The notes below the pieces were generated by a model. It worked only from the letters and a program-made list of their open reading frames with translations. It had not been told where the DNA came from and searched no databases. From Dactylosporangium siamense (GTDB lineage: Bacteria; Actinomycetota; Actinomycetes; Mycobacteriales; Micromonosporaceae): a DNA stretch of 64,000 bases. Where the stretch lies: contig NZ_BONQ01000014.1 in assembly GCF_016862795.1 (NCBI RefSeq), positions 62,001 to 126,000 of the forward strand, in the 5' to 3' direction. Within the stretch, counting starts at the first letter, position 1. Every line of letters begins with the position of its first letter. Below are positions 8,234 to 19,198 of the stretch, one piece after another. A program made the translations under genes and the position numbers.

Positions 8234-8250
8234 CATATCGTCGGCGTATC
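8234..8250 (+). promoter_or_regulatory. candidate VanR box upstream of vanH
   Basis: CATATCGTCGGCGTATC is found here, 49 bp before the vanH start codon. The same 17-mer with one change occurs upstream of vanR at 12764-12780. VanR-type regulators are known to activate both the vanH and vanRS promoters, so a shared motif in just these two promoters is a good operator candidate. Confidence 0.6.
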
Positions 8251-8298
8251 CGAAATCGAATACGTGCCGGCAACAGCCGGTTGCCTTGACTGGAACGC

Positions 8299-9297
8299 AT
8301 GACCCACCGCGAACCAGCACGAGCAGGCACCCCCGCGACGGGCATCACGGTGTACGGGTGCGAGCCCGACGAGGCCGCCCTGTTCCGGGAGCTGGCGCCG
8401 CACCTCGGGGTGGTGCCGACCATCACGGCGGCGCCGGTGTCCGAGGCCGACGCCGGCCTGGCGCTCGGCAACCGGTGCGTCAGCGTCGGCCACAAGACCC
8501 GGGTCACCGGCGCCACGCTGCTCGCGCTGCGCCGCGCCGGCGTCGCCTATGTCTCCACCCGGAGCGTCGGGTTCGACCACATCGATGTGCGGTCCGCGCA
8601 GCGGCTCGGCATCGTCGTGGGGAACGTCGCCTACTCGCCCGACAGCGTGGCCGACTACACGCTGATGCTGATGCTGATGGCGGTCCGGGACGCGAGATCC
8701 GTCCTGCGCCGCGTGGACGTCCATGACTACCGGTTGCCCGCCACCCGCGGGAGGGAACTGCGCGACCTGACCGTCGGGGTGGTGGGCACGGGACGCATCG
8801 GCGCGGCGGTCATCGACCGGCTGCGAGGCTTCGGCGGCAAGGTCCTGGCCAGCGACAGCCGCCCGAAGGCCGGCACCGACCACGTCCCGCTCGACGCGCT
8901 GCTGCGGCAGAGCGACATCGTGACCCTGCACACCCCGCTGCACGCGGACACCCGTCACCTGCTGGACCGGCGGCGGATCGAGCTGATGAAACGCGGCGCG
9001 TTCGTCATCAACACCGGGCGCGGCCCGCTGCTGGACACCGATGCCCTGGTGCAGGCGCTGGAGAGCGGCAGATTGGGCGGTGCCGCGCTGGACGTCCTGG
9101 AAGGCGAGGAAGGGATCTTCTACACCGACCGCAGGAACCGGCCCGTCGCCGACGAGCGGCTGCTGCGGCTGCGGCGGCTGCCGAACGTGATCGTCACTCC
9201 GCACACGGCCTACTACACGGACCACGCCCTGAGCGACATCGTGCAGCACTCCATCGTCAATTGCCTGGAATTCGAGAACGGGAGCCAGCGTGGCTAG
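8299..9297 (+). CDS. vanH: D-lactate dehydrogenase VanH
   Basis: This 332-aa D-2-hydroxyacid dehydrogenase has the NAD-binding loop VGVVGTGRIGAAVIDRLRGFG, the catalytic region NTGRGPLLDTDALVQALESGRLGGAALDVLEGEE and the His-containing IVTPHTAYYTD. VanH reduces pyruvate to D-lactate, the substrate for the VanA ligase encoded directly downstream. The 8-bp overlap with the ligase gene and position at the head of an H-A-X order make the specific call secure. The frame ends in UAG. Confidence 0.95.
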   Translation: MTHREPARAGTPATGITVYGCEPDEAALFRELAPHLGVVPTITAAPVSEADAGLALGNRCVSVGHKTRVTGATLLALRRAGVAYVSTRSVGFDHIDVRSAQRLGIVVGNVAYSPDSVADYTLMLMLMAVRDARSVLRRVDVHDYRLPATRGRELRDLTVGVVGTGRIGAAVIDRLRGFGGKVLASDSRPKAGTDHVPLDALLRQSDIVTLHTPLHADTRHLLDRRRIELMKRGAFVINTGRGPLLDTDALVQALESGRLGGAALDVLEGEEGIFYTDRRNRPVADERLLRLRRLPNVIVTPHTAYYTDHALSDIVQHSIVNCLEFENGSQRG

Positions 9298-10330
9298 GTT
9301 GAAGATCGGCGTCATGTTCGGCGGATGCTCCGAGGAGCACCCCGTCTCCGTCACATCCGCGCGGGAGGTCGCCCGGAGCCTGGACCCCGAGCGGTACGAA
9401 CCGTTCTACATCGGGATCACCAGGGACGGCGCCTGGCGGCTGTGTGACGGCCCCGGCGCGGGTTGGGAGCGCGGCGGCGGACGCCCGGCCGTGCTGTCAC
9501 CGGACCGGGGCGTGCCCGGGTTGCTGGTGCTGGAGCAGGGCCGCTACGAGACGATCGGGCTGGACCTGGTGCTGCCCGTCCTGCACGGCAGGTTCGGCGA
9601 GGACGGCGCGGTGCAGGGGTTGCTGGAGCTGTCCGGCATCCCCTACGTGGGCTGCGACGTGCAGAGTTCCGCACTGTGCATGGACAAGTCCCTGGCCTAC
9701 CTCGTCGCCGGCAGCGCGGGCATCGCCACGCCGGACGTCCGGACCGTCATGGCGGACGAGACCCCCGATCCCGACCGGATCACCTATCCCGTCTTCGTCA
9801 AACCGGCCCGGTCCGGCTCGTCCTTCGGCGTCAGCAAGGTGTCCCGAGGGGAGGAGCTCCCGGGCGCGGTGGAGGTCGCGAGGCGGTACGACGCGAAGGT
9901 GCTCATCGAAGCGGCCGTCGCCGGTCGTGAGGTCGGGTGCGCGGTCCTGGGCGACGGACCGGACCTGGTCACCGGCGAGGTGGACCGGATCGCGCTGTCC
10001 CACGGCTTCTTCAGGATCCATCAGGAGCGTGCACCCGAGACCGGCTCCGAGAACTCGACCCCGATCGTCCCCGCCGACATCCCGGCGGCGTCGCGCGAGC
10101 TGGTCCAGGAGACGGCGAAGACCGTCTATCGCGCCCTGGGCTGCCGGGGGCTGGCGCGGGTCGACCTGTTCCTCAAGGACGATGGCACGGTGGTCCTGAA
10201 CGAGGTCAACACCCTCCCCGGTCTGACCTCGTACAGCCGCTACCCGAGAATGATGGCGGCGGCGGGTTGGCCGCTCGCCGAGGTGATCGACCGGCTCGTG
10301 TCGCTGGCACTGACGGGAAAACTCCGATGA
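9290..10330 (+). CDS. vanA: D-alanine--D-lactate ligase VanA type
   Basis: This 346-aa ATP-grasp ligase starts at GTG 9290 (ARLKIGVMFGGCSEEHPVSV). The omega-loop reads EVDRIALSHGFFRIHQER, with the FRIHQE signature that separates D-Ala-D-Lac ligases from ordinary Ddl enzymes. ATP/Mg residues lie in FVKPARSGSSFGVSKV and the C-terminal RVDLFLKDDGTVVLNEVNTLPGLTSYSRYPRMM. The product, ending in D-Ala-D-Lac, is incorporated into peptidoglycan precursors that vancomycin binds poorly. The stop overlaps the vanX start (ATGA). Subtype (A/B/other) cannot be fixed without alignment. Confidence 0.95.
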   Translation: MARLKIGVMFGGCSEEHPVSVTSAREVARSLDPERYEPFYIGITRDGAWRLCDGPGAGWERGGGRPAVLSPDRGVPGLLVLEQGRYETIGLDLVLPVLHGRFGEDGAVQGLLELSGIPYVGCDVQSSALCMDKSLAYLVAGSAGIATPDVRTVMADETPDPDRITYPVFVKPARSGSSFGVSKVSRGEELPGAVEVARRYDAKVLIEAAVAGREVGCAVLGDGPDLVTGEVDRIALSHGFFRIHQERAPETGSENSTPIVPADIPAASRELVQETAKTVYRALGCRGLARVDLFLKDDGTVVLNEVNTLPGLTSYSRYPRMMAAAGWPLAEVIDRLVSLALTGKLR

Positions 10331-10971
10331 GCGACGTCTTCGTGTTCGTCGACGAGTTCGTGCCCGGAATCCGCTGGGACGCCAAGTATGCGACCTGGGA
10401 CAACTTCACCGGCAAACCGGTGGACGGATACCGGGCCAACCGGATCGTCGGCACGACGGCCCTGTGCGCCGCTCTGCGGAGGGCCCGGGACGGGGCCGCG
10501 TCGCGCGGCTTCGGCCTGCTGCTGTGGGACGGGTACCGCCCGCAACGCGCCGTCGACTGCTTCGTGCGCTGGTCGCGGCAGCCCGAGGACGGCCGGACGA
10601 AACCGCGGCACTACCCGAACATCGACCGGGCCGAGATGATCGAGCGCGGATATGTGGCCACCAGGTCGGGCCACAGCCGGGGCAGCACCGTCGACCTGAC
10701 GCTCTACCATCTCGCCACCGGCGAGCTGGCCGCGATGGGCGGCGACCACGACCTGATGGACCCGGTCTCGCATCACGCGGCGGCGGGCATCACGCCGGTC
10801 GAGGCGGACAACCGGCAGACCCTCTGCGCCGTCATGGAGGCCGCCGGGTTCGCCCGCTACGACTTCGAGTGGTGGCACTACACGTTGCGCGACGAGCCGT
10901 ACCCGGACACCTATTTCGACTTTCCCATCACCGAGCTGATCGGGCTCCAGCACCTGGCAGCCGCACCGTGA
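10327..10971 (+). CDS. vanX: D-Ala-D-Ala dipeptidase VanX
   Basis: This 214-aa zinc dipeptidase has SGHSRGSTVDLTLYH (the SxHxxGxxxD zinc motif with His and Asp ligands) and EWWHY (catalytic Glu and third ligand His), plus the WDAKYATWDNFTG and LLLWDGYRPQRAVDCF blocks typical of VanX. It removes D-Ala-D-Ala so that only D-Ala-D-Lac precursors are built. It is the last gene of the vanHAX operon, and its 3' end overlaps the end of the opposing vanS by 44 bp. Confidence 0.96.
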   Translation: MSDVFVFVDEFVPGIRWDAKYATWDNFTGKPVDGYRANRIVGTTALCAALRRARDGAASRGFGLLLWDGYRPQRAVDCFVRWSRQPEDGRTKPRHYPNIDRAEMIERGYVATRSGHSRGSTVDLTLYHLATGELAAMGGDHDLMDPVSHHAAAGITPVEADNRQTLCAVMEAAGFARYDFEWWHYTLRDEPYPDTYFDFPITELIGLQHLAAAP

Positions 10972-12061
10972 CGCTGAGCCCACCGTCGGGGCGGGGGGTG
11001 AGGGTGAGGGTCCCGTCGTGTGCCTCGGCGATGCGCTTGACGATGGCCAGGCCGAGGCCGACACCCGCGTGGCCGTCGTGGATCCGGCCGGTGCCGCGCT
11101 GGAACGGCTCGACGATGGTGGCGACCAGCGTCGGGGTGAGCCGCTCGCCGGTGTTGTCGACCGTGAGCGTCACGGTCGTCGCCTCGACACCGGTCGTGAC
11201 CCACACCGTGCCGCCCGCCAGGTTGTGGACGATCGCATTGTGCACGAGGTTCGTCGTCAGCTGCAGCAGCAGCGCGTGGGAGCCGGTCGTGGGCGCGATG
11301 TCGCCGGAGGTCTCGACGGTGATGCCGCGTCGCTCCGCGAGCGGGAGCAGCGTCTCGGCGGCCTCCTCCGCGATGAGCGACAGGTCGACGTGCTCCCGGG
11401 TGAAGGAGCGTTGCTCGGCCCGGCTGAGCAGGAGCAGCGCCTCGGTGAGGTCGATCGCCCGGGTGTTGATCACCCGGAGACGCTCGACGAGCTCGCCATT
11501 GTCGCGGTCCGGATCGTTGCGGGCCACGTCGAGCAGCGTCTGCGTGACCGCGAGGGGGGTGCGCAGCTCGTGGGAGGCGTTGGCGGCGAATCTGCGCTGC
11601 TCGGCGACGTGGGCCTCCAGGCGCGCGAGCATGGCGTCGAAGGCGTCGGCGAGCTCGCGGAACTCGTCACCGCGGCCTTCCAGCTCGATCCGGTGGGACA
11701 GCGACCCGTCCCCGGCCTGGCGGGTGGCCCGGGTGATGCGGGTCAGGGGCGCGAGCATGCGGCCGGCGAGGATCCATCCTCCCAGCAGGCCGAAGATCAG
11801 CAGGACGACCAGCATCGCGGCGGCCTTCGGGGCGAAGGCGGCCTCCAGGTCGGCGCGGTTCGGCGCGATGATCGGCGACGGCGGGCGCCGGCCGCCCTGC
11901 CCCATGGTGGGCACGTCCGTGCCGGACTGGATCACCTCGGGCACGTAGCGCAGCAGGAACACCCACACCACGGCGAGCAGCAGGACACCGGCCAGCATGA
12001 GGAACCCCGCGTAGCTGAGGGTCAACTTCAGGCGGACGCTCGGACCGGGCGCCCTATCCAC
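10928..12061 (-). CDS. vanS: sensor histidine kinase VanS-like
   Basis: This 377-aa protein starts with GTG at 12061, about 2 codons after the vanR stop, rather than at a far upstream in-frame ATG inside vanR. Two membrane helices (LTLSYAGFLMLAGVLLLAVVWVFLL and MLVVLLIFGLLGGWILAGRM) flank a short extracytoplasmic loop, followed by HAMP, HisKA (FAANASHELRTPLAVTQTLL, phospho-His) and HATPase_c (NLVHNAIVHN, GVGLGLAIVKRIAEAHDG). The short loop is typical of actinomycete VanS, which can sense glycopeptide directly. Identity as VanS rests on position facing vanHAX and the shared promoter motif. Confidence 0.82.
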   Translation of the reverse strand: MDRAPGPSVRLKLTLSYAGFLMLAGVLLLAVVWVFLLRYVPEVIQSGTDVPTMGQGGRRPPSPIIAPNRADLEAAFAPKAAAMLVVLLIFGLLGGWILAGRMLAPLTRITRATRQAGDGSLSHRIELEGRGDEFRELADAFDAMLARLEAHVAEQRRFAANASHELRTPLAVTQTLLDVARNDPDRDNGELVERLRVINTRAIDLTEALLLLSRAEQRSFTREHVDLSLIAEEAAETLLPLAERRGITVETSGDIAPTTGSHALLLQLTTNLVHNAIVHNLAGGTVWVTTGVEATTVTLTVDNTGERLTPTLVATIVEPFQRGTGRIHDGHAGVGLGLAIVKRIAEAHDGTLTLTPRPDGGLSVTVRLPGAGARSAR

Positions 12062-12740
12062 GGTCCCCTCCGGCGCCGGCTGCCGTCTCGATGCGATAGC
12101 CGACGCCGGCCACGGTGGCGATGATCGCGGGTTCGCCGAGCCGTTTGCGTAACGCCGAGACGGTGATGCGCACGGCGTTGGTGAAGGGGTCGGCGTTCTC
12201 GTCCCAGGCCCGTTCCAGGAGCTCCTCGGCGCTGACGACACCGCCTTCCGCGGTGACGAGGACCTCGAGCACGGCGAACTGTTTCCGGGTGAGCGCGACG
12301 TAGCGGCCGTCGCGGTACACCTCGCGGCGGAACGGGTCCAGGCGCAGGCCCGCGATCTCCCGCACGGGCGGCCGGTTGTGGGCCCGCCGGCGGTCGAGCG
12401 CCCTGAGCCGCAGGACCAGCTCCCGCAGTTCGAACGGTTTCGTGAGGTAGTCGTCGGCGCCGAGCTCGAACCCGGAGGTCTTGTCGTCGAGCCGGTCGGC
12501 GGCGGTGAGCATCAGGATCGGCATCCCGCTGCCGGAGGCGACGATACGTTCGGCGATCTCGTCGCCGGAGGGCCCGGGAATGTCACGGTCGAGGACGGCG
12601 ATGTCGTAGGCGTTGACGCTCAACAGCTCCAGTGCGATGTCACCGGTGCCGGCGATGTCGGCCGCGATCGCCGCCAGGCGCAGCCCGTCCCGGATGGCCT
12701 CGGCCATGAACGGCTCGTCCTCGACGACCAGTACCCGCAT
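12054..12740 (-). CDS. vanR: OmpR-family response regulator VanR-like
   Basis: This 228-aa protein begins MRVLVVEDEPFMAEAI. The receiver has phospho-acceptor Asp at about 51 (IAVLDRDIPGPSG), Thr in ILMLTAAD and Lys in YLTKPFELRELV. The C-terminal winged helix ends VRITVSALRKRLGEPAIIATVAGVGYRIE. It forms a unit with vanS and should activate vanHAX and its own promoter. The frame ends in UAG at 12056-12054, just ahead of the vanS start. The tRNA-like gene lies immediately upstream on the same strand. Confidence 0.85.
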   Translation of the reverse strand: MRVLVVEDEPFMAEAIRDGLRLAAIAADIAGTGDIALELLSVNAYDIAVLDRDIPGPSGDEIAERIVASGSGMPILMLTAADRLDDKTSGFELGADDYLTKPFELRELVLRLRALDRRRAHNRPPVREIAGLRLDPFRREVYRDGRYVALTRKQFAVLEVLVTAEGGVVSAEELLERAWDENADPFTNAVRITVSALRKRLGEPAIIATVAGVGYRIETAAGAGGDRG

Positions 12741-12763
12741 GATCCCGATGCTACGAGCGGCGG

Positions 12764-12780
12764 CATATCGCCGGCGTATC
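12764..12780. promoter_or_regulatory. candidate VanR box upstream of vanR
   Basis: CATATCGCCGGCGTATC matches the vanH-proximal copy at 16 of 17 positions and lies 23 bp before the vanR start, between the tRNA-like gene and vanR. Its core CGCCGGCG is palindromic, so orientation relative to the promoter may not matter. Confidence 0.6.
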
Positions 12781-12803
12781 GAACACCGGATCCGCCGCGA
12801 CGC

Positions 12804-12874
12804 GCCTCAGACGGGAGTCGAACCCGCTACGGGCTGTTTTAGAGACAGCTGCCCGGCCGTCGGGCTTCTGAGGC
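12804..12874 (-). tRNA. tRNA with CTA anticodon (amber-reading, tRNA-Trp-like anticodon loop)
   Basis: On the minus strand 71 nt fold into a full cloverleaf: acceptor GCCTCAG/CTGAGGC (7 bp), D stem GCCC/GGGC with loop GACGGCC, anticodon stem GCTGT/ACAGC with loop CTCTAAA, 5-nt variable loop, T stem GCGGG/CCCGT and T loop TTCGACT. U33 and A37 are canonical, and the anticodon (12842-12840) is CTA, cognate to UAG. The next base gives discriminator G73; CCA is not encoded. Deviations are A at position 8, G at 14 and a 7-nt D loop, so core tertiary contacts must differ. The loop is one base from CTCCAAA, which I recall for actinobacterial tRNA-Trp. It lies at the end of the operon holding an amber-interrupted Pth2 gene. 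It could be a degenerate relic, but all four stems are intact. Confidence 0.82.
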
Positions 12875-12877
12875 TCG

Positions 12878-12906
12878 GTGGGGGTGACCGCCGGGGTCAC
12901 CCCCAC
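12878..12906 (-). terminator. 12-bp hairpin between the 80-aa gene and the CTA tRNA
   Basis: GTGGGGGTGACC pairs perfectly with GGTCACCCCCAC around a 5-nt loop. On the minus strand it begins 11 nt after the stop of the 80-aa gene and ends 3 nt before the tRNA. It lacks a U-tract, so it may be a terminator, a leaky terminator, or a processing structure that releases the tRNA from the operon transcript. Confidence 0.65.
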
Positions 12907-12917
12907 AGTGTGGAGGG

Positions 12918-13160
12918 TCAGGGCGACATCTCGTCGATCCGGTCCCGGAGCTGCTCGTCGGTGACGCGGTCGCGGGCCGTGCGGAACTCCGCCGCGGTCA
13001 GCGACCGGCCGAGCTCGTCCAGCGTGCGCAACACGAGCCGCTGGGACACGACCCGCCGGTTGAGGGTGTCGAGCGCCGCGGCCTGCCGCAGCACCTTCGC
13101 CTGCAGCCAGCGGATCGCCTTCGGCAGGTCCGAGGGGTCCGCGATGAGGTCGGTGGTCAT
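12918..13160 (-). CDS. small helical protein of unknown function, last ORF of the amber/Pth2 operon
   Basis: This 80-aa protein (MTTDLIADPSDLPKAIRWLQ...RDRIDEMSP) starts at ATG 13160, with GGGAGGT 7 nt upstream. The ATG overlaps the TGA of the Pth2 frame (ATGA), so its translation is probably coupled to Pth2 translation and hence to amber readthrough. It is rich in Leu, Arg and Glu and likely forms two or three amphipathic helices or a coiled coil. I recognise no family. Its position suggests a partner of the kinase-Pth2 protein. Confidence 0.75.
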   Translation of the reverse strand: MTTDLIADPSDLPKAIRWLQAKVLRQAAALDTLNRRVVSQRLVLRTLDELGRSLTAAEFRTARDRVTDEQLRDRIDEMSP

Positions 13161-13501
13161 GGTTTCACCTCCCCTCGTGGTCCACGAAGGGCAACGGGGA
13201 GGTGCGAGAGAAGCTTGTACGCGGCCGGCTCGAGGGCGACCGCGGTCAGCGCGCCGCCGAGGTCCGGCTCGTGGAACCTGGTGTGCCGGTGCCCGGCGAC
13301 GGACGCGGCGCCGCACAGGTGGCGCAGGGCGTCCTCGTCGCGCGCGGCGACCAGGACGAGCGTGTTGGAAGCGGTGTGCCAGTCGCGGAAGGCGTCAGGA
13401 TGGGCGACGGCGAAGTCGAGCGCGGCATGGGTCGCCTGCGTGGCCTGGGTCCCGGGCGGCAGATCGGCGCGGGTGACCAGATAGAGACGCGGGGTGCGAA
13501 C
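13157..13501 (-). CDS. Pth2-type peptidyl-tRNA hydrolase domain, reachable only by UAG readthrough
   Basis: Directly after the kinase stop codon UAG the same frame stays open for 114 codons to TGA at 13159-13157. It encodes VRTPRLYLVTRADLPPG, TQATQATHAALDFAVAHP, SNTLVLVAARDEDALRHL and FHEPDLGGALTAVALEP, which match the order of Pth2 proteins (first strand, QxxHA helix, central strand, and the E-P-D-L...TA(V/L)AL end). Pth2 enzymes cleave peptidyl-tRNA esters to recycle stalled tRNAs. There is no ATG, GTG or TTG before the conserved first strand and no ribosome site; the first near-start is CTG inside that strand. Third positions are strongly G/C. The frame is best explained as the C-terminal half of a kinase-Pth2 fusion read through UAG. 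Confidence 0.85.
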   Translation of the reverse strand, partial: VRTPRLYLVTRADLPPGTQATQATHAALDFAVAHPDAFRDWHTASNTLVLVAARDEDALRHLCGAASVAGHRHTRFHEPDLGGALTAVALEPAAYKLLSHLPVALRGPRGEVKP

Positions 13502-13504
13502 CTA
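13502..13504 (-). other. in-frame UAG codon separating kinase and Pth2 domains (candidate programmed readthrough site)
   Basis: The minus-strand codons are CCG CAC TTC TAG GTT CGC ACC, so kinase residues P-H-F are followed by UAG and then V-R-T of the Pth2 domain in one frame. A tRNA with the complementary CTA anticodon is encoded about 630 nt downstream on the same strand. Full readthrough would give a 295-aa protein. A sequencing or assembly error (for example UGG or CAG read as UAG) is the main alternative. Confidence 0.8.
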
Positions 13505-14044
13505 GAAGTGCGGCATGGCTTGATGGTACCGATGCCATCCGGTCAATGCCAGGATCTGCGCTGCGAGTTCGCTGAGAGCCCTGCCGTCGGTCGGGATCCG
13601 GTGCACCGACGGCGGCGCGTGCGCCTCGAGGGACCTGGCCGCGGCGTCGCTGCGCACCACGTGCCGCTGCAGCGCGCTGCCGATCTCGCGGCGGGCCAGC
13701 CGCTCCCGGGCCGTCGCGTCCGAGGACGTGAGCAGCACGGCGGTGACGCGCGGGTCGTCGCCCATCGCGGCGGTGAGCGCGTCGACGTGCTGGACGCTCA
13801 CCGTGTTCGTGTAGATCAGGCGGCGGTAGCCCAGGTCGCGGTAGTTGGCCCACATGGCGGCGAGGTTGCGCTCGGCGAGGCGGTGCTCCCAGGGCGGCGG
13901 GTGGGCCAGGTCGAGGTTGTCGCCTTCGATGAGGCAGTGCCGCACGTCGGCGTCGCACAGCTGGACGTGCAGCTCGACCGCGACGCTGCTCTTGCCGACG
14001 CCGGACCGCCCGCCGAGGAACAGCACCTCGCTGCGGTCGCTCAC
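13502..14044 (-). CDS. P-loop kinase / AAA-type small ATPase; N-terminal half of the amber-interrupted protein
   Basis: This 180-aa protein starts at GTG 14044 (SDRSEVLFLGGRSGVGKSSVAVEL), overlapping the preceding stop by 4 nt (GTGA). Walker A is GGRSGVGKSS. The segment HCLIEGDNLDLAHP resembles the substrate-binding turn of small-molecule or nucleotide kinases, and ARERLARREIGSALQRHVVRS looks like an Arg-rich lid. It belongs broadly with gluconate/shikimate/APS-kinase-like P-loop phosphotransferases. An RNA-end or nucleotide kinase would suit the Pth2 and tRNA context, but no diagnostic motif proves this. It terminates in UAG followed in frame by the Pth2 domain. Confidence 0.85.
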   Translation of the reverse strand: MSDRSEVLFLGGRSGVGKSSVAVELHVQLCDADVRHCLIEGDNLDLAHPPPWEHRLAERNLAAMWANYRDLGYRRLIYTNTVSVQHVDALTAAMGDDPRVTAVLLTSSDATARERLARREIGSALQRHVVRSDAAARSLEAHAPPSVHRIPTDGRALSELAAQILALTGWHRYHQAMPHF

Positions 14045-14328
14045 CGGCGCGGGCACGGGCCGGTGCTGATGACGACGCCGTTCTGGCCGTCGAGGATGAC
14101 GTAGACGTCGCCCTCGACGATGTTGAGGCGGCCGCCGGGCATCGGGGCGCCGGTGCAGTAGCTCGGGATCGGCAGCTGGTGCGCGAAGGACACGGTGACC
14201 GGCGCGGTGGCCGGGGCCGCGGCGAACAGGGCGCAGGCGGCCAGCAGCAGGACCCGGGGCAGCCTCACCTGCCGCGGCGCCGGCTCCGGCCGCACCGGCG
14301 TGTCGAGGTCGATCACGACGTCGGTCAT
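14041..14328 (-). CDS. short single-pass membrane protein, possibly truncated PQQ-like beta-propeller protein
   Basis: This 95-aa protein starts at ATG 14328 (MTDVVIDLDTPVRPEPAPRQ). A cytoplasmic Pro-rich tail is followed by one membrane helix (RVLLLAACALFAAAPATAP) and about 45 outside residues ending VYVILDGQNGVVISTGPCPRR. The start and the DVYVI...NG phrase resemble actinomycete membrane-anchored PQQ-repeat proteins, which are normally several hundred residues, so this could be a truncated relative. It is coupled by GTGA overlap to the kinase and so heads the amber operon. The function is unknown. Confidence 0.65.
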   Translation of the reverse strand: MTDVVIDLDTPVRPEPAPRQVRLPRVLLLAACALFAAAPATAPVTVSFAHQLPIPSYCTGAPMPGGRLNIVEGDVYVILDGQNGVVISTGPCPRR

Positions 14329-14337
14329 CACCACCGA

Positions 14338-14372
14338 TGGTAGCCCCGGCGCCGGGAGCGCCGGGGCTACCA
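14338..14372. terminator. strong hairpin terminator after the GH9 cellulase gene
   Basis: A perfect 14-bp stem (TGGTAGCCCCGGCG with CGCCGGGGCTACCA) closes a 7-nt loop, starting 5 nt past the cellulase stop on the minus strand. It ends 10 nt before the first gene of the kinase/Pth2 operon, leaving little room for a separate promoter there. Confidence 0.8.
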
Positions 14373-14376
14373 GCAT

Positions 14377-17223
<2,847 letters not shown>

Positions 17224-17245
17224 TCACCGCCCCTTCGAGGGGATC

Positions 17246-17650
17246 TCACCCCTGGCGGATGCCGTCCGCCCTGCTCACGCCGTGAAACTTTCGTGTGATC
17301 AGTACGTGGACCAGCACCAACGGCACGACGCCGACGGGGTACCAGATGAGGTCGACCGGGTCGAACGTCACCCCGAACACGTACCTGGCGAGAAGGCTGC
17401 GACTCGACAGCTCGGCCGGGACGCCGGTGAGCTGGAAGGTCTCCATCGCCCAGCAGAACGCGATCGCGGCGGCGCCGGCGACGAGCGGGGTCGTCCGGGG
17501 CCGGACGAAGAAGACCCCGGCGTAGATCATCGACGCGTAGAGGGCGGTGCCGGAGTATTGCCGCAGCGCACCGTCGTCGACGGCCCGGATGGCGAAGGCG
17601 ACGGCGAGCGCGAGCCCGGCGCCGAGCAGCGCCAACAGGCGGCTACGCAC
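17246..17650 (-). CDS. DUF2809-family membrane protein
   Basis: This 134-aa protein has about four membrane helices (LLALLGAGLALAVAFAIRAV; GTALYASMIYAGVFFV; PLVAGAAAIAFCWAMETFQL; DLIWYPVGVVPLVLVHVLI). The R-Q-Y-S-G-T-A-L-Y and FCWAMETFQLTG blocks match the DUF2809 family of small actinomycete and proteobacterial membrane proteins of unknown function. Its start overlaps the preceding lipoprotein gene by 8 nt, so they are co-transcribed. Confidence 0.82.
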   Translation of the reverse strand: MRSRLLALLGAGLALAVAFAIRAVDDGALRQYSGTALYASMIYAGVFFVRPRTTPLVAGAAAIAFCWAMETFQLTGVPAELSSRSLLARYVFGVTFDPVDLIWYPVGVVPLVLVHVLITRKFHGVSRADGIRQG

Positions 17651-18257
17651 GCGGGATCTTCACGGCGCGCCCGGTGCGCAGGTCGACCGCGGCGCCGCCC
17701 GGCTTGGGGTCCCCGGCAGTCAGCAGCACGGTCTGCCCGACCGGGACGCGCACCGCGAGGATCGCCGCGGCGATCGGGTCGCCGTCCTGCGGGTCGACCA
17801 GCGGCGCCGACTCGTAGCGGGTGGGGACGGCGCAGGGTCCGGTTGCGTCCGCCGGGCAGCCGACCCGCCAGGCGTCGGTCATTCGGGCCGAGACGATCAC
17901 GGTGCTCACCGGGTGGATCTTAGGATCCCCGCCGGGCAGCCGGGTGACCAGGGCGAGGACGTATTCGTGGGTGTCGTCGTCGGCGATCAGCCCGTCGCCG
18001 TCTCTGTGCCAGTCGGCCGCGCTCTCGTCGAGCTGCTGCGATGTGGCGACGGCGTCGACCCGCAGCGTGTCGAGGTCGGCGCCGGCGATGACGGGCACTC
18101 CGGCGAGCTTGCCGAGAACGGCCCGGTCGGCGTTGATGCAGCACTCGTCGTAGTCGGCCGGGGTGTCCTGGACCGCCTCGTCGAACGTGTCCGCGAACGG
18201 CCCGATGCAGCCGAGCAGGAGCACCGCGGCCACGGCGAGGAGCATTGATCGTCTCAC
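17643..18257 (-). CDS. putative lipoprotein of unknown function
   Basis: This is about 204 aa, starting at GTG 18257 (RRSMLLAVAAVLLLGCIGP); the two Arg and the LLLGC lipobox make a plausible lipoprotein signal, with a shorter ATG start at 18245 possible. The mature part contains DECCINADRAVLGKLAGVPVIAGADLDTLRV and a later CPADATGPCAVPTRYESAPLVDP segment with four Cys. I do not recognise the family. It is divergent from the MarR-GNAT regulator whose operator sits 35 bp away, so it may be in that regulon, together with the DUF2809 gene. Confidence 0.7.
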   Translation of the reverse strand: MRRSMLLAVAAVLLLGCIGPFADTFDEAVQDTPADYDECCINADRAVLGKLAGVPVIAGADLDTLRVDAVATSQQLDESAADWHRDGDGLIADDDTHEYVLALVTRLPGGDPKIHPVSTVIVSARMTDAWRVGCPADATGPCAVPTRYESAPLVDPQDGDPIAAAILAVRVPVGQTVLLTAGDPKPGGAAVDLRTGRAVKIPRA

Positions 18258-18291
18258 CGCGCCGAGTATGCCCGTCGCATGCCACCAATTA

Positions 18292-18307
18292 CCTGACTAT
18301 AGTCAGG
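18292..18307. promoter_or_regulatory. perfect 16-bp palindromic operator and leaderless promoter of the MarR-GNAT gene
   Basis: CCTGACTATAGTCAGG is a perfect palindrome. Its centre contains TATAGT, a good -10 hexamer spaced 7 bp from the ATG at 18311, with no ribosome site between. That suggests a leaderless transcript repressed when the palindrome is bound, most simply by the encoded MarR domain. Confidence 0.7.
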
Positions 18308-18310
18308 CAT

Positions 18311-19198
18311 ATGACCGAGGATCTGGTGGCGACCGTCCGCCGCTTCAACCGGACCGTGACGCAGCGCGTCGGCGCGCTCGACGACGAGTACCTGTCCCGG
18401 GGCAGGCCGCTCGGCCAGGCTCGCCTGCTGTGGGAGATCGGCCCGGCCGGCGCCGAGGTCGCCGCCCTGCGCGCCCGCCTGGGCCTGGACGCGGGCTACC
18501 TGAGCCGGTTGCTGCGGGCCCTCGAGGCCGACGGCCTGGTCGACGTCTGCGCCGGCACGGGTGGCGACGCCCGCGTCCGCGAGGCCACCCTGACCACCGA
18601 AGGCCGGGCCGAGTGGGCGGTGCTCGACCGCGAGTCCGACGACCTGGCGCGCTCGATCCTCGGCCCCCTCAGCACCGGCCAGCAGGGCCGCCTGGCGACC
18701 GCGATGGCCGAGGTCGAGCGCCTGCTCATGGCCTCGATGATCGACCTGGCGCCGAGCCCGCCGGGCGACCCGCGGGCCCGCTCGTGCCTGCGCGCCTACG
18801 CCCGGGAGCTGTCCCAGCGCTTCGACGCCGGCTTCGACCCAGCGGTCAGCAAGCCCGTCGACGACGATGACCTGGTCCCGCCGAAGGGCGTGTTCCTCCT
18901 GGCCACACTGTCCGGCGAGCCGGTCGGCTGCGGCGCCCTGAAGCTGCTCCCGGACGTGCCGGCGGAGATCAAGCGCCTGTGGGTGTCCGGGACGGTGCGC
19001 GGTCTCGGCGTCGGCCGGCGCATCCTGAGCGAGCTGGAACGCCGCGCCGCCGAGGCCGGCCGGGACTCGGTGCGCCTGGACACCAACCGCAACCTGGTCG
19101 AGGCGATCCGCCTCTACCGCTCCAGCGGCTACACCGAGGTCCCCGCCTACAACGACGAGCCGTATGCCCACCACTGGTTCTCCAAGCGGCTCACCTAG
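18311..19198 (+). CDS. MarR HTH / GNAT acetyltransferase fusion protein
   Basis: This 295-aa protein starts at ATG 18311 (MTEDLVATVRRFNRTVTQRVG). Residues 1-145 form a MarR winged helix (LGQARLLWEIGPAGAEV, LGLDAGYLSRLLRALEADGLV, RVREATLTTEGRAEW). Residues 150-295 are a GNAT domain with the acetyl-CoA loop VRGLGVGRRILSELERRAAEAG and LYRSSGYTEVP. This fusion is a known actinobacterial family whose acetylation target is mostly uncharacterised. It should autoregulate through the palindrome just upstream. It ends in UAG. Confidence 0.9.
   Translation: MTEDLVATVRRFNRTVTQRVGALDDEYLSRGRPLGQARLLWEIGPAGAEVAALRARLGLDAGYLSRLLRALEADGLVDVCAGTGGDARVREATLTTEGRAEWAVLDRESDDLARSILGPLSTGQQGRLATAMAEVERLLMASMIDLAPSPPGDPRARSCLRAYARELSQRFDAGFDPAVSKPVDDDDLVPPKGVFLLATLSGEPVGCGALKLLPDVPAEIKRLWVSGTVRGLGVGRRILSELERRAAEAGRDSVRLDTNRNLVEAIRLYRSSGYTEVPAYNDEPYAHHWFSKRLT

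Follow-up and report, generated by a model that had tools for sequence, protein, structure and literature searches.

An early UAG codon and a linked CUA-anticodon tRNA suggest stop-codon gating of a Pth2-like protein in actinobacteria and phages

How can a protein be made from a gene whose fifth codon is UAG, and does a tRNA with the matching anticodon, encoded a few hundred nucleotides downstream, belong to the answer? This question is raised by a locus of Dactylosporangium siamense, which we studied within a stretch of 64,000 nucleotides (contig NZ_BONQ01000014.1, positions 62,001 to 126,000; referred to here as the window) from a draft assembly (98.84% complete, 296 contigs). A sequence-only reading of the locus had described a kinase-Pth2 gene interrupted by UAG, in which the Pth2 half has no usable start codon and needs a tRNA with the anticodon CUA for its synthesis. 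In this study, we confirmed the UAG (13502–13504, minus strand), the Pth2-like frame that follows it (13501–13160), an 80-amino-acid gene overlapping the stop codon of this frame, and the tRNA on the same strand. The proposed dependence on the tRNA is upheld in so far as UAG, tRNA and pth2-like gene form a conserved unit, but the parts of the claim that concern the kinase and the missing start codon are not.

The frame 3' of the UAG matches the Pfam family PF01981 (E 1.8e-6; 28.6 bits against a gathering cut-off of 23), and the cut-offs of the NCBIfam Pth2 equivalog models are not reached (18.6 bits for a cut-off of 126, and 17.2 for one of 82). Profile A3, one row of which is the window protein, matches solved Pth2 structures, including 1rzw, 2zv3, 1q7s and others, and the AlphaFold2 model of the protein has a mean pLDDT of 93.2 and a pTM of 0.86. 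Canonical Pth2 enzymes carry a [RK]GK motif, the lysine of which has a catalytic role. This lysine is absent here, as RGK aligns with p-g-l in the profile alignment, and none of the fully or almost fully conserved columns of alignment A9 is a lysine. Since a residue other than lysine occupies this position, it is uncertain whether the Pth2-like protein is active as a peptidyl-tRNA hydrolase.

The pth2-like gene extends from 13516 to 13157 on the minus strand, opens with ATG-CCG-CAC-TTC-TAG and ends in TGA, so that the UAG is its codon 5 (MPHF-UAG-VRTPRLYLVTR...). The ATG at 13516–13514, four codons 5' of the UAG, provides the start codon that the gene had been thought to lack. It is preceded by a −10-like hexamer, TACCAT (13523–13528, minus strand), 12 nt upstream, and all 18 actinobacterial loci examined have a TANNNT hexamer 12 or 13 nt 5' of the start codon; each control window gave the motif in none or one of the 18 loci, and shuffles in a mean of 0.74 (maximum 5). 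A hexamer at this distance predicts transcription to begin at or next to the ATG, and the pth2-like mRNA is therefore probably leaderless. With two further Nocardia loci, the actinobacterial set comprises 20 genomes including that of the window; TAG is codon 5 in all 20 (start-N9-TAG), while codons 2–4 vary (MPHF, MPNR, MPFR, MPFE, MPHR, MPHP, MPYR, MTHR, VSQF, VPHR, VPHY). As the same UAG recurs in 20 genomes, a sequencing error at this site can be ruled out.

The tRNA gene (12802–12874, minus strand; anticodon loop CTCTAAA) was called by ARAGORN and scores 47.8 bits against the Rfam tRNA family RF00005 (cut-off 29); position 8 is not a U. As a cloverleaf with the anticodon CUA it is of the amber suppressor type. 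In the draft assembly, ARAGORN called 85 tRNAs that differ from one another within their first 50 letters in the stretches around the 84 RF00005 matches of the genome, and no other has the anticodon CTA. An alignment of 16 loci contains compensatory changes in all four stems, with 99.1% of cells paired and seven pairs changed on both sides, and none of 500 shuffles reached either value. In each of the 17 actinobacterial tRNAs that are complete, the discriminator base is a purine (A or G). ARAGORN labels every CTA tRNA described here as tRNA-Pyl; the tRNAs form ordinary cloverleaves whose acceptor stems vary, and in viral tRNAs these stems are very diverse.

It had been proposed to ask of related loci whether the separating codon is always UAG and whether a CTA tRNA is always close by, and in the 20 actinobacterial loci the answer is yes. 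A same-strand CTA tRNA lies 587–747 nt 3' of the TAG in 17 of the 18 loci; in the 18th it is cut by the contig end with the anticodon and T arms still visible. The two further Nocardia loci also have the tRNA, and the spacing across the 20 genomes is about 590–750 nt. Among 150 genomes of the family, the tRNA pattern was detected in ten, that is in nine of nine with a UAG-pth2 gene and in one of the 141 others (Fisher p = 1.2e-13), and this one genome has retained the UAG leader and the small gene. Genome G072 has lost most of its Pth2 domain and kept the tRNA, which speaks against Pth2 as the sole purpose. Of 148 Nocardia genomes, six have pth2, and these six also show the tRNA pattern; a seventh pattern match is not recognised as a tRNA by ARAGORN. 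In keeping with the linkage, no tRNA is present in the stretch read around the decayed copies L340 and L341.

The window copy gives no sign of a prophage origin: positions 12802–19180, which include a GH9 cellulase, are collinear with D. aurantiacum, and a van-like cluster joins the module at the 3' end of the tRNA. No plasmid relatives were found at E 1e-5. The host is not recoded: TAG closes six of the window's 32 long ORFs and so is not generally a sense codon as in genetic code 15.

Between the pth2-like gene and the tRNA lies the second gene (12918–13160, minus strand), whose start overlaps the pth2 stop codon. Its 80-amino-acid product has no Pfam match and is modelled by AlphaFold2 as mostly helical (helix 9–50; mean pLDDT 83). 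Next to pth2 it is present in all 18 actinobacterial loci, the two further Nocardia loci and four viral contigs. In three of the six Nocardia genomes it contains an in-frame UAG at codon 8, and in the remaining ones this site is CAG (Gln). A perfect 12-bp hairpin (12878–12906, minus strand; arms 12878–12889 and 12895–12906), detected in a repeat search, separates this gene from the tRNA. Similar inverted repeats were seen by eye in other loci.

The same association extends to viruses. Among 139 non-redundant viral relatives, whose start type was classed by a crude rule, early in-frame stops comprise 50 UAG, one UAA and one UGA. A CUA tRNA lies within 2 kb in 39 of the 50 early-UAG loci; for the other 11, neither this distance nor the whole records, which may be fragments, yielded a CTA tRNA by pattern search and ARAGORN. 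By our own start rule, the UAG is one of codons 2–5 in 53 of 58 viral loci. A normal start codon for Pth2 had been named among the cases that would count against the proposal, and in part this does occur. Of the 139 relatives, 34 have an ordinary start and no stop-suppressor tRNA in the fetched locus, and a further 42 start ordinarily although the locus as fetched does contain such a tRNA (35 with CTA within 2 kb, two with CTA farther away, five with TTA). Pth2-like genes and suppressor tRNAs are therefore paired beyond the UAG-gated loci as well, and the gate is not essential to the pairing.

How, then, is the protein made? Given the conserved unit of UAG, CUA tRNA and Pth2-like gene, the tRNA is very probably needed for the protein and very probably decodes the pth2 UAG as an amino acid. 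Indirect evidence of such decoding comes from the co-occurrence of UAG and tRNA and from the alternation of UAG with CAG in the second gene of Nocardia. It is very likely that full-length protein arises mainly through this tRNA reading UAG in competition with RF1, and it would then appear only when the tRNA is present, matured and charged. We regard it as likely, from the conservation and layout of the parts, that a dedicated suppressor tRNA gates the Pth2-like protein in a stop-codon-gated operon, the mRNA of which, probably leaderless, would run from AUG-NNN-NNN-NNN-UAG through the Pth2-like protein, the small helical protein and the hairpin to the tRNA. It is possible that all parts of the module are on one transcript, and that the same tRNA regulates other genes ending in UAG.

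Such a gate might in addition be closed into a circuit, and a feedback circuit had been part of the sequence-only reading. Drop-off early in elongation has been documented (PMC10192219, in the part of that paper available to us). Codons 2–5, where the UAG is placed, would be a zone in which short peptidyl-tRNAs drop off easily, and tRNA-CUA might itself be trapped there as short peptidyl-tRNA. If the Pth2-like protein frees the trapped tRNA, then the readthrough product would sustain readthrough, in the manner of an on switch. We put forward only tentatively, as a thought that may well prove wrong, that in actinobacteria and phages the product recycles tRNA-CUA in this way and thereby forms a self-sustaining or threshold switch.

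The feedback could also have the opposite sign, in a self-limiting or toxin-antidote arrangement. The suppressor tRNA would be harmful through readthrough of normal UAG stops, and the UAG-gated Pth2-like protein, produced in proportion to suppressor activity, would damp it. Because UAG is a normal stop in the genome, suppressor activity would be expected to carry a cost, and the decayed copies L340 and L341 (= L035) have neither an intact gene nor, within the stretch read, a tRNA. However, G072 has kept its tRNA after losing most of the Pth2 domain, and with viral acceptor stems so diverse, a specific mechanism of inactivation is not obvious. We consider this arrangement unlikely, if worth keeping in mind.

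It is improbable that the UAG acts as an attenuator, with a start-stop leader followed by reinitiation and an incidental tRNA. Reinitiation is possible where a start codon lies 3' of the UAG, as it does in eight viral loci, including the mycobacteriophage type, and in two of the 18 actinobacterial loci (L006 and L032, with GTG or TTG between UAG and domain). In phage Alice an in-frame start and stop are found just upstream of four of 56 CDS, two of them with TAG and pth2 included. However, the other 16 actinobacterial loci have no ATG, GTG or TTG between the UAG and the first beta strand, and the 50 early-TAG viral loci are, by the definition of their class, without such a start codon. Reinitiation also leaves unexplained the linked CUA tRNA and the bias towards UAG (50 of 52 viral and 20 of 20 actinobacterial loci).

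The view that the module is a relic or by-product of genome-wide TAG recoding in phages (genetic code 15), without any gating, merits still less credence. Coding coverage rises with TAG read as sense in 14 of 58 viral loci, which are possibly recoded, and the pth2 genes of L054, L066, L118, L153 and L154 contain further TAGs. On the other hand, 44 of 58 loci show no gain, by a crude measure that also flags L166 (Bixzunavirus type); TAG serves as a stop in phage Alice (eight of 56 CDS in a 48-kb stretch) as in the host window, and recoding would not place TAG at codons 2–5. For the actinobacterial loci this view is already contradicted.

We give next to no weight to the TAG being part of a second −10 box that drives a shorter leaderless mRNA: TAG and the next three bases do read TANNNT in 10 of 18 loci, and L015, a distant ordinary Pth2, has a box-like in-frame TAG six codons upstream followed by a GTG start, but the motif does not fit in eight of 18, 16 of 18 loci lack a start before the first strand, and the tRNA is left unexplained. 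The kinase (13502–14044, minus strand) is AAA_33-like through weak Pfam matches below the AAA_33 cut-off. Its frame and that of pth2 are continuous in the window genome and share the UAG, which is what had suggested a fusion by readthrough. However, the D. aurantiacum kinase, about 88% identical at the DNA level, is out of frame with pth2 and stops at a TAA that leaves 13 nt to the ATG of pth2. The open frame that meets the pth2 UAG in Asanoa ishikariensis (L010) is another one, and at the remaining loci that were read, the 5' extension of the pth2 frame is not kinase-like. We thus reject the kinase as part of the UAG gene; as a general design the fusion is refuted, and there is hardly any chance of it.

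No description of a UAG-gated pth2 gene paired with a linked suppressor tRNA was found in the open-licence PMC literature among the matches listed. Dedicated suppression of the pth2 UAG would provide a defined target for naturally occurring CUA suppressor tRNAs, both in phages and in bacteria that are not recoded, where the role of these tRNAs can be obscure. It suggests that dedicated nonsense suppression may switch genes even where the standard code applies. Annotation is affected as well, since gene finders that treat UAG as a stop will truncate or mis-start the gene; gp150 of phage Alice, for example, is annotated from the GTG 3' of the UAG.

Several known systems share features with the module. 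Phage-borne CUA suppressors have been described in Xanthomonas phage XacN1, whose authors, in the part of their report available to us, were unable to identify target genes (PMC5852040). XacN1 as a further case of the module is unsupported in the approximately 101 kb of its 385 kb that were read, in which its Pth (ORF295) is canonical-looking, without an early UAG and unlinked to the suppressors. In phages with genetic code 15, CUA tRNAs are likewise encoded together with UAG-containing genes, and suppression has been proposed to control gene timing (PMC9523058 and PMC13037316, available in part). The module differs from these in several respects: its host is unrecoded, no more than one or two genes carry the UAG, mostly at codons 2–5, the UAG gene and the tRNA are linked, and bacterial chromosomes also carry the module. 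The pyrrolysine (pyl) cassette is a self-contained system of UAG decoding with its own tRNA, as the module would be, whereas the module encodes one Pth2-like protein and one without a Pfam match, and its tRNAs have the ordinary cloverleaf form, with acceptor stems that vary. The gene for RF2 (prfB) also belongs to the translation machinery and depends on recoding near its own start, but does so by a frameshift rather than by nonsense suppression through a dedicated linked tRNA. Finally, lambda bar and other minigenes have a very short start-to-stop stretch that should yield short peptidyl-tRNA, the substrate of Pth, and the module contains a comparable stretch expected to do the same; in the module, however, it serves as leader to the very gene that encodes the Pth2-like protein, and would be read through.

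The UAG-interrupted pth2-like gene lies on the minus strand of the window, where a -10-like TACCAT (13528-13523) precedes an ATG (13516-13514) that is followed by CCG CAC TTC and then by an in-frame TAG (13504-13502). The frame runs on to a TGA at 13159-13157. It is followed by the gene for an 80-aa protein (13160-12918), by a hairpin of 12 bp (12906-12878) and by a CTA-anticodon tRNA (12874-12802; RF00005, 47.8 bits). The sequence-only reading had described the UAG with the Pth2 frame continuing beyond it, the overlap of the Pth2 stop with the start of the 80-aa gene and the CTA tRNA at the end of the unit, and our data bear out all three, the frame matching PF01981 with an E-value of 1.8e-6. 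Its statement that the Pth2 frame has no usable start codon does not hold, since an ATG is present before the TAG. A profile that takes in this frame also matched solved Pth2 structures, and the AlphaFold2 model of the protein has a mean pLDDT of 93.2 and a pTM of 0.86; the canonical Pth2 lysine is absent. The tRNA is the sole one with a CTA anticodon among 85 ARAGORN tRNAs, counted as distinct by their first 50 letters, in stretches around the genome's 84 RF00005 matches. Many tRNA types have a second copy in the D. siamense genome, and the tRNA genes are arrayed as well as scattered (tRNA-rich coordinates C14:259500-260422, C44:96022-97517 and C124:2124-3203).

A protein search gave matches in 14 of 150 Micromonosporaceae genomes; nine of these, including that of the window, are close homologues, and the UAG is present in all nine. 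A scan of genome contigs yielded 19 loci, of which seven repeat family genomes, two (L035 and L037) are degenerate or fragmentary with no tRNA in the locus, one is from a Planctomycetales MAG (TAG as codon 8, CTA tRNA present, small gene absent) and nine are new actinobacterial loci from Nocardia, Actinomadura and Streptosporangiaceae MAGs. It had been asked whether the codon is always UAG, and across the actinobacterial loci (nine close family homologues, nine from the scan and two further Nocardia) it is, TAG being codon 5 in 20 of 20. In all 18 loci examined TANNNT precedes the start by 12 or 13 nt (0 or 1 in control windows), and a Shine-Dalgarno-like site is present in one of the 18; this arrangement fits a leaderless mRNA. 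In 16 of the 18, the stretch from the TAG to the first strand contains no ATG, GTG or TTG. The seven distant Pth2 loci read (L002, L011-L015 and L017) all lack a CTA tRNA over about 1.5 kb, and in six of them the 15 codons next to the match contain no in-frame TAG; in L015 a TAG lies six codons upstream, but the GTG start comes after it, and this TAG resembles a portion of a -10 box.

Most likely, synthesis of the Pth2-like protein depends entirely on readthrough, in which tRNA-CUA would compete with RF1 at the early UAG. In the AlphaFold2 model the first strand starts at residue 5 after the UAG, and because the UAG-encoded residue falls before it, the identity of this residue may be unimportant. 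Early elongation is a stage of peptidyl-tRNA drop-off and recycling by Pth, as described in PMC10192219, and the early position of the UAG coincides with it; this makes attractive a feedback loop in which the Pth2-like product would free the tRNA used for its own synthesis. The product lacks the lysine of canonical Pth2, and feedback of the opposite sign, giving a self-limiting circuit, is also possible.

In our hand-typed alignment of 16 actinobacterial tRNAs from 18 loci (omitting L027, which is cut, and L031, which is very like L024) 99.1% of cells were paired and seven pairs had two-sided changes, neither of which was matched by any of 500 shuffles; for further pair types, one of the five measures, the real alignment was equalled by 344 of the 500 shuffles. 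U at position 8 is absent from all 17 complete actinobacterial tRNAs and present in 89 of 112 distinct viral CTA/TTA tRNAs. Because the acceptor stems of the viral tRNAs are highly diverse, the amino acid is probably not the conserved property.

The search pattern CTCTAAAN{10,15}GGTTCGANTCC, which picks up this tRNA type only, occurs in 10 of the 150 family genomes, namely all nine with a UAG-pth2 gene and G072 (Fisher p = 1.2e-13 for co-occurrence). In G072 the Pth2 domain is mostly deleted, the tRNA is intact and the leader MPHY-TAG now continues in frame into the small gene, which shows that leader, small gene and tRNA can outlast the loss of most of the domain. No tRNA was found in the 4-5 kb read around the decayed copies L340 and L341 (the latter in the same place as L035). 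In the decayed small gene of L341/L018, the second copy of Asanoa ishikariensis, the conserved Trp of RWLQ has become TAG. In Nocardia, the protein is found in 6 of 148 genomes and the tRNA pattern in seven, that is, the same six and one match not called a tRNA by ARAGORN. When 396 genomes from the phylum were searched with a profile, scoring only about 11 candidates per genome, one weak match (E 3.8e-4) came up besides the window's own. From these counts the module appears rare and patchy.

The second gene, whose product is predicted to form one long and two short helices, adjoins pth2 in 18 actinobacterial loci and the 2 further Nocardia, and lies beside it in four viral contigs (L044, L053, L058 and L059). 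Its codon 8 is TAG in three of six Nocardia, including L382, whose TAG was seen in one of two readouts, and CAG in the other three. This alternation provides independent evidence that UAG is sense inside the module, and a weak hint that glutamine is inserted.

Five scans yielded 210 viral loci, which were reduced to 139 by removing relatives more than 90% identical. Early in-frame stops with a start before and none after were TAG in 50, TAA in one and TGA in one, and in eight more loci the TAG is flanked by two starts; a CTA tRNA lies within 2 kb in 39 of the 50 and in all eight. Viral CTA tRNAs are on the same strand in 98 cases and on the opposite strand in one. In 53 of these 58 loci our own start rule places the UAG at codon 2-5; upstream of the 58 there is TANNNT in 17, a Shine-Dalgarno-like site in 21 (one has both) and neither in 21. 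Eleven early-TAG records lack a nearby CTA tRNA, and an ARAGORN-checked pattern search over each whole record gave none either. In L173 and L175 a TANNNT box is present and TAG directly follows the start codon, but a search of these records gave no CTA tRNA. By crude sorting of the 139, an ordinary start occurs with a CTA tRNA within 2 kb in 35, with one farther away in two, with a TTA tRNA in five and with no such tRNA in the locus in 34; three have a stop nearby but no clear start. The ordinary-start loci count against the UAG gate as a universal rule. The TTA-anticodon (ochre) tRNAs are in L040, L055, L122, L137 and L193, where pth2-like starts are ordinary. In L138, L142 and L154 a TAG lies in the pth2 frame just upstream, between similar residues (...K/R-TAG-NV...), and possibly an upstream gene is read through UAG in these phages, which have no early UAG in pth2.

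A protein search matched 202 records of deposited phages, and 193 of these are from Mycobacterium phages. Among those read, Alice and Cane17 have ATG-TAG-GTG, and ScoobyDoobyDoo and Phabba GTG-TAG-GTG, each with a CTA tRNA downstream. Two huge-phage records (L066, MS-TAG; L072, MK-TAG) have CTA tRNAs; a third (L073, MKN-TAG) has none in 6.2 kb and Tenacibaculum pT24 (L068, MK-TAG) none in 4.3 kb. Lak-A1 and Aeromonas phages 65 and CC2 (L069-L071) show neither early TAG nor CTA tRNA in the stretch read. Of 56 CDS in a 48-kb stretch of Alice, excluding cut and joined CDS, eight use TAG as stop, and four are directly preceded by a start and a stop in the same frame; in two of the four, one being pth2, that stop is TAG.

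The sequence-only reading had joined the upstream kinase to Pth2 as one gene, and in the window genome the two are in frame. As a general design this is contradicted by D. aurantiacum, whose DNA is 86-88% identical to window 12802-19180 and collinear with it: there a TAA closes the kinase frame 13 nt upstream of the pth2 ATG, and that frame is a different one. In addition, another open frame leads into the same UAG in A. ishikariensis (L010), and in the remaining loci read the upstream pth2 frame, the one frame searched for a kinase, is not kinase-like. The kinase is a neighbour that is in frame by coincidence in this genome. On the other side, a vanH/vanA/vanX-like cluster, named by eye from translations and accompanied by a response regulator and a sensor-kinase-like gene, adjoins the tRNA 3' end (8236-12802). 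This region is collinear with G106, a family genome without the module in the protein search, and collinearity switches from G106 to D. aurantiacum exactly where the tRNA ends at its 3' side, resembling a site of integration or recombination.

Our literature search found no description of the dedicated circuit, and passages from PMC5852040, PMC6102473, PMC13037316, PMC7162821, PMC9523058 and PMC10865867 contain no link between Pth2 and a suppressor tRNA. The individual parts are already known and, as far as we found, their combination into a dedicated circuit is new.
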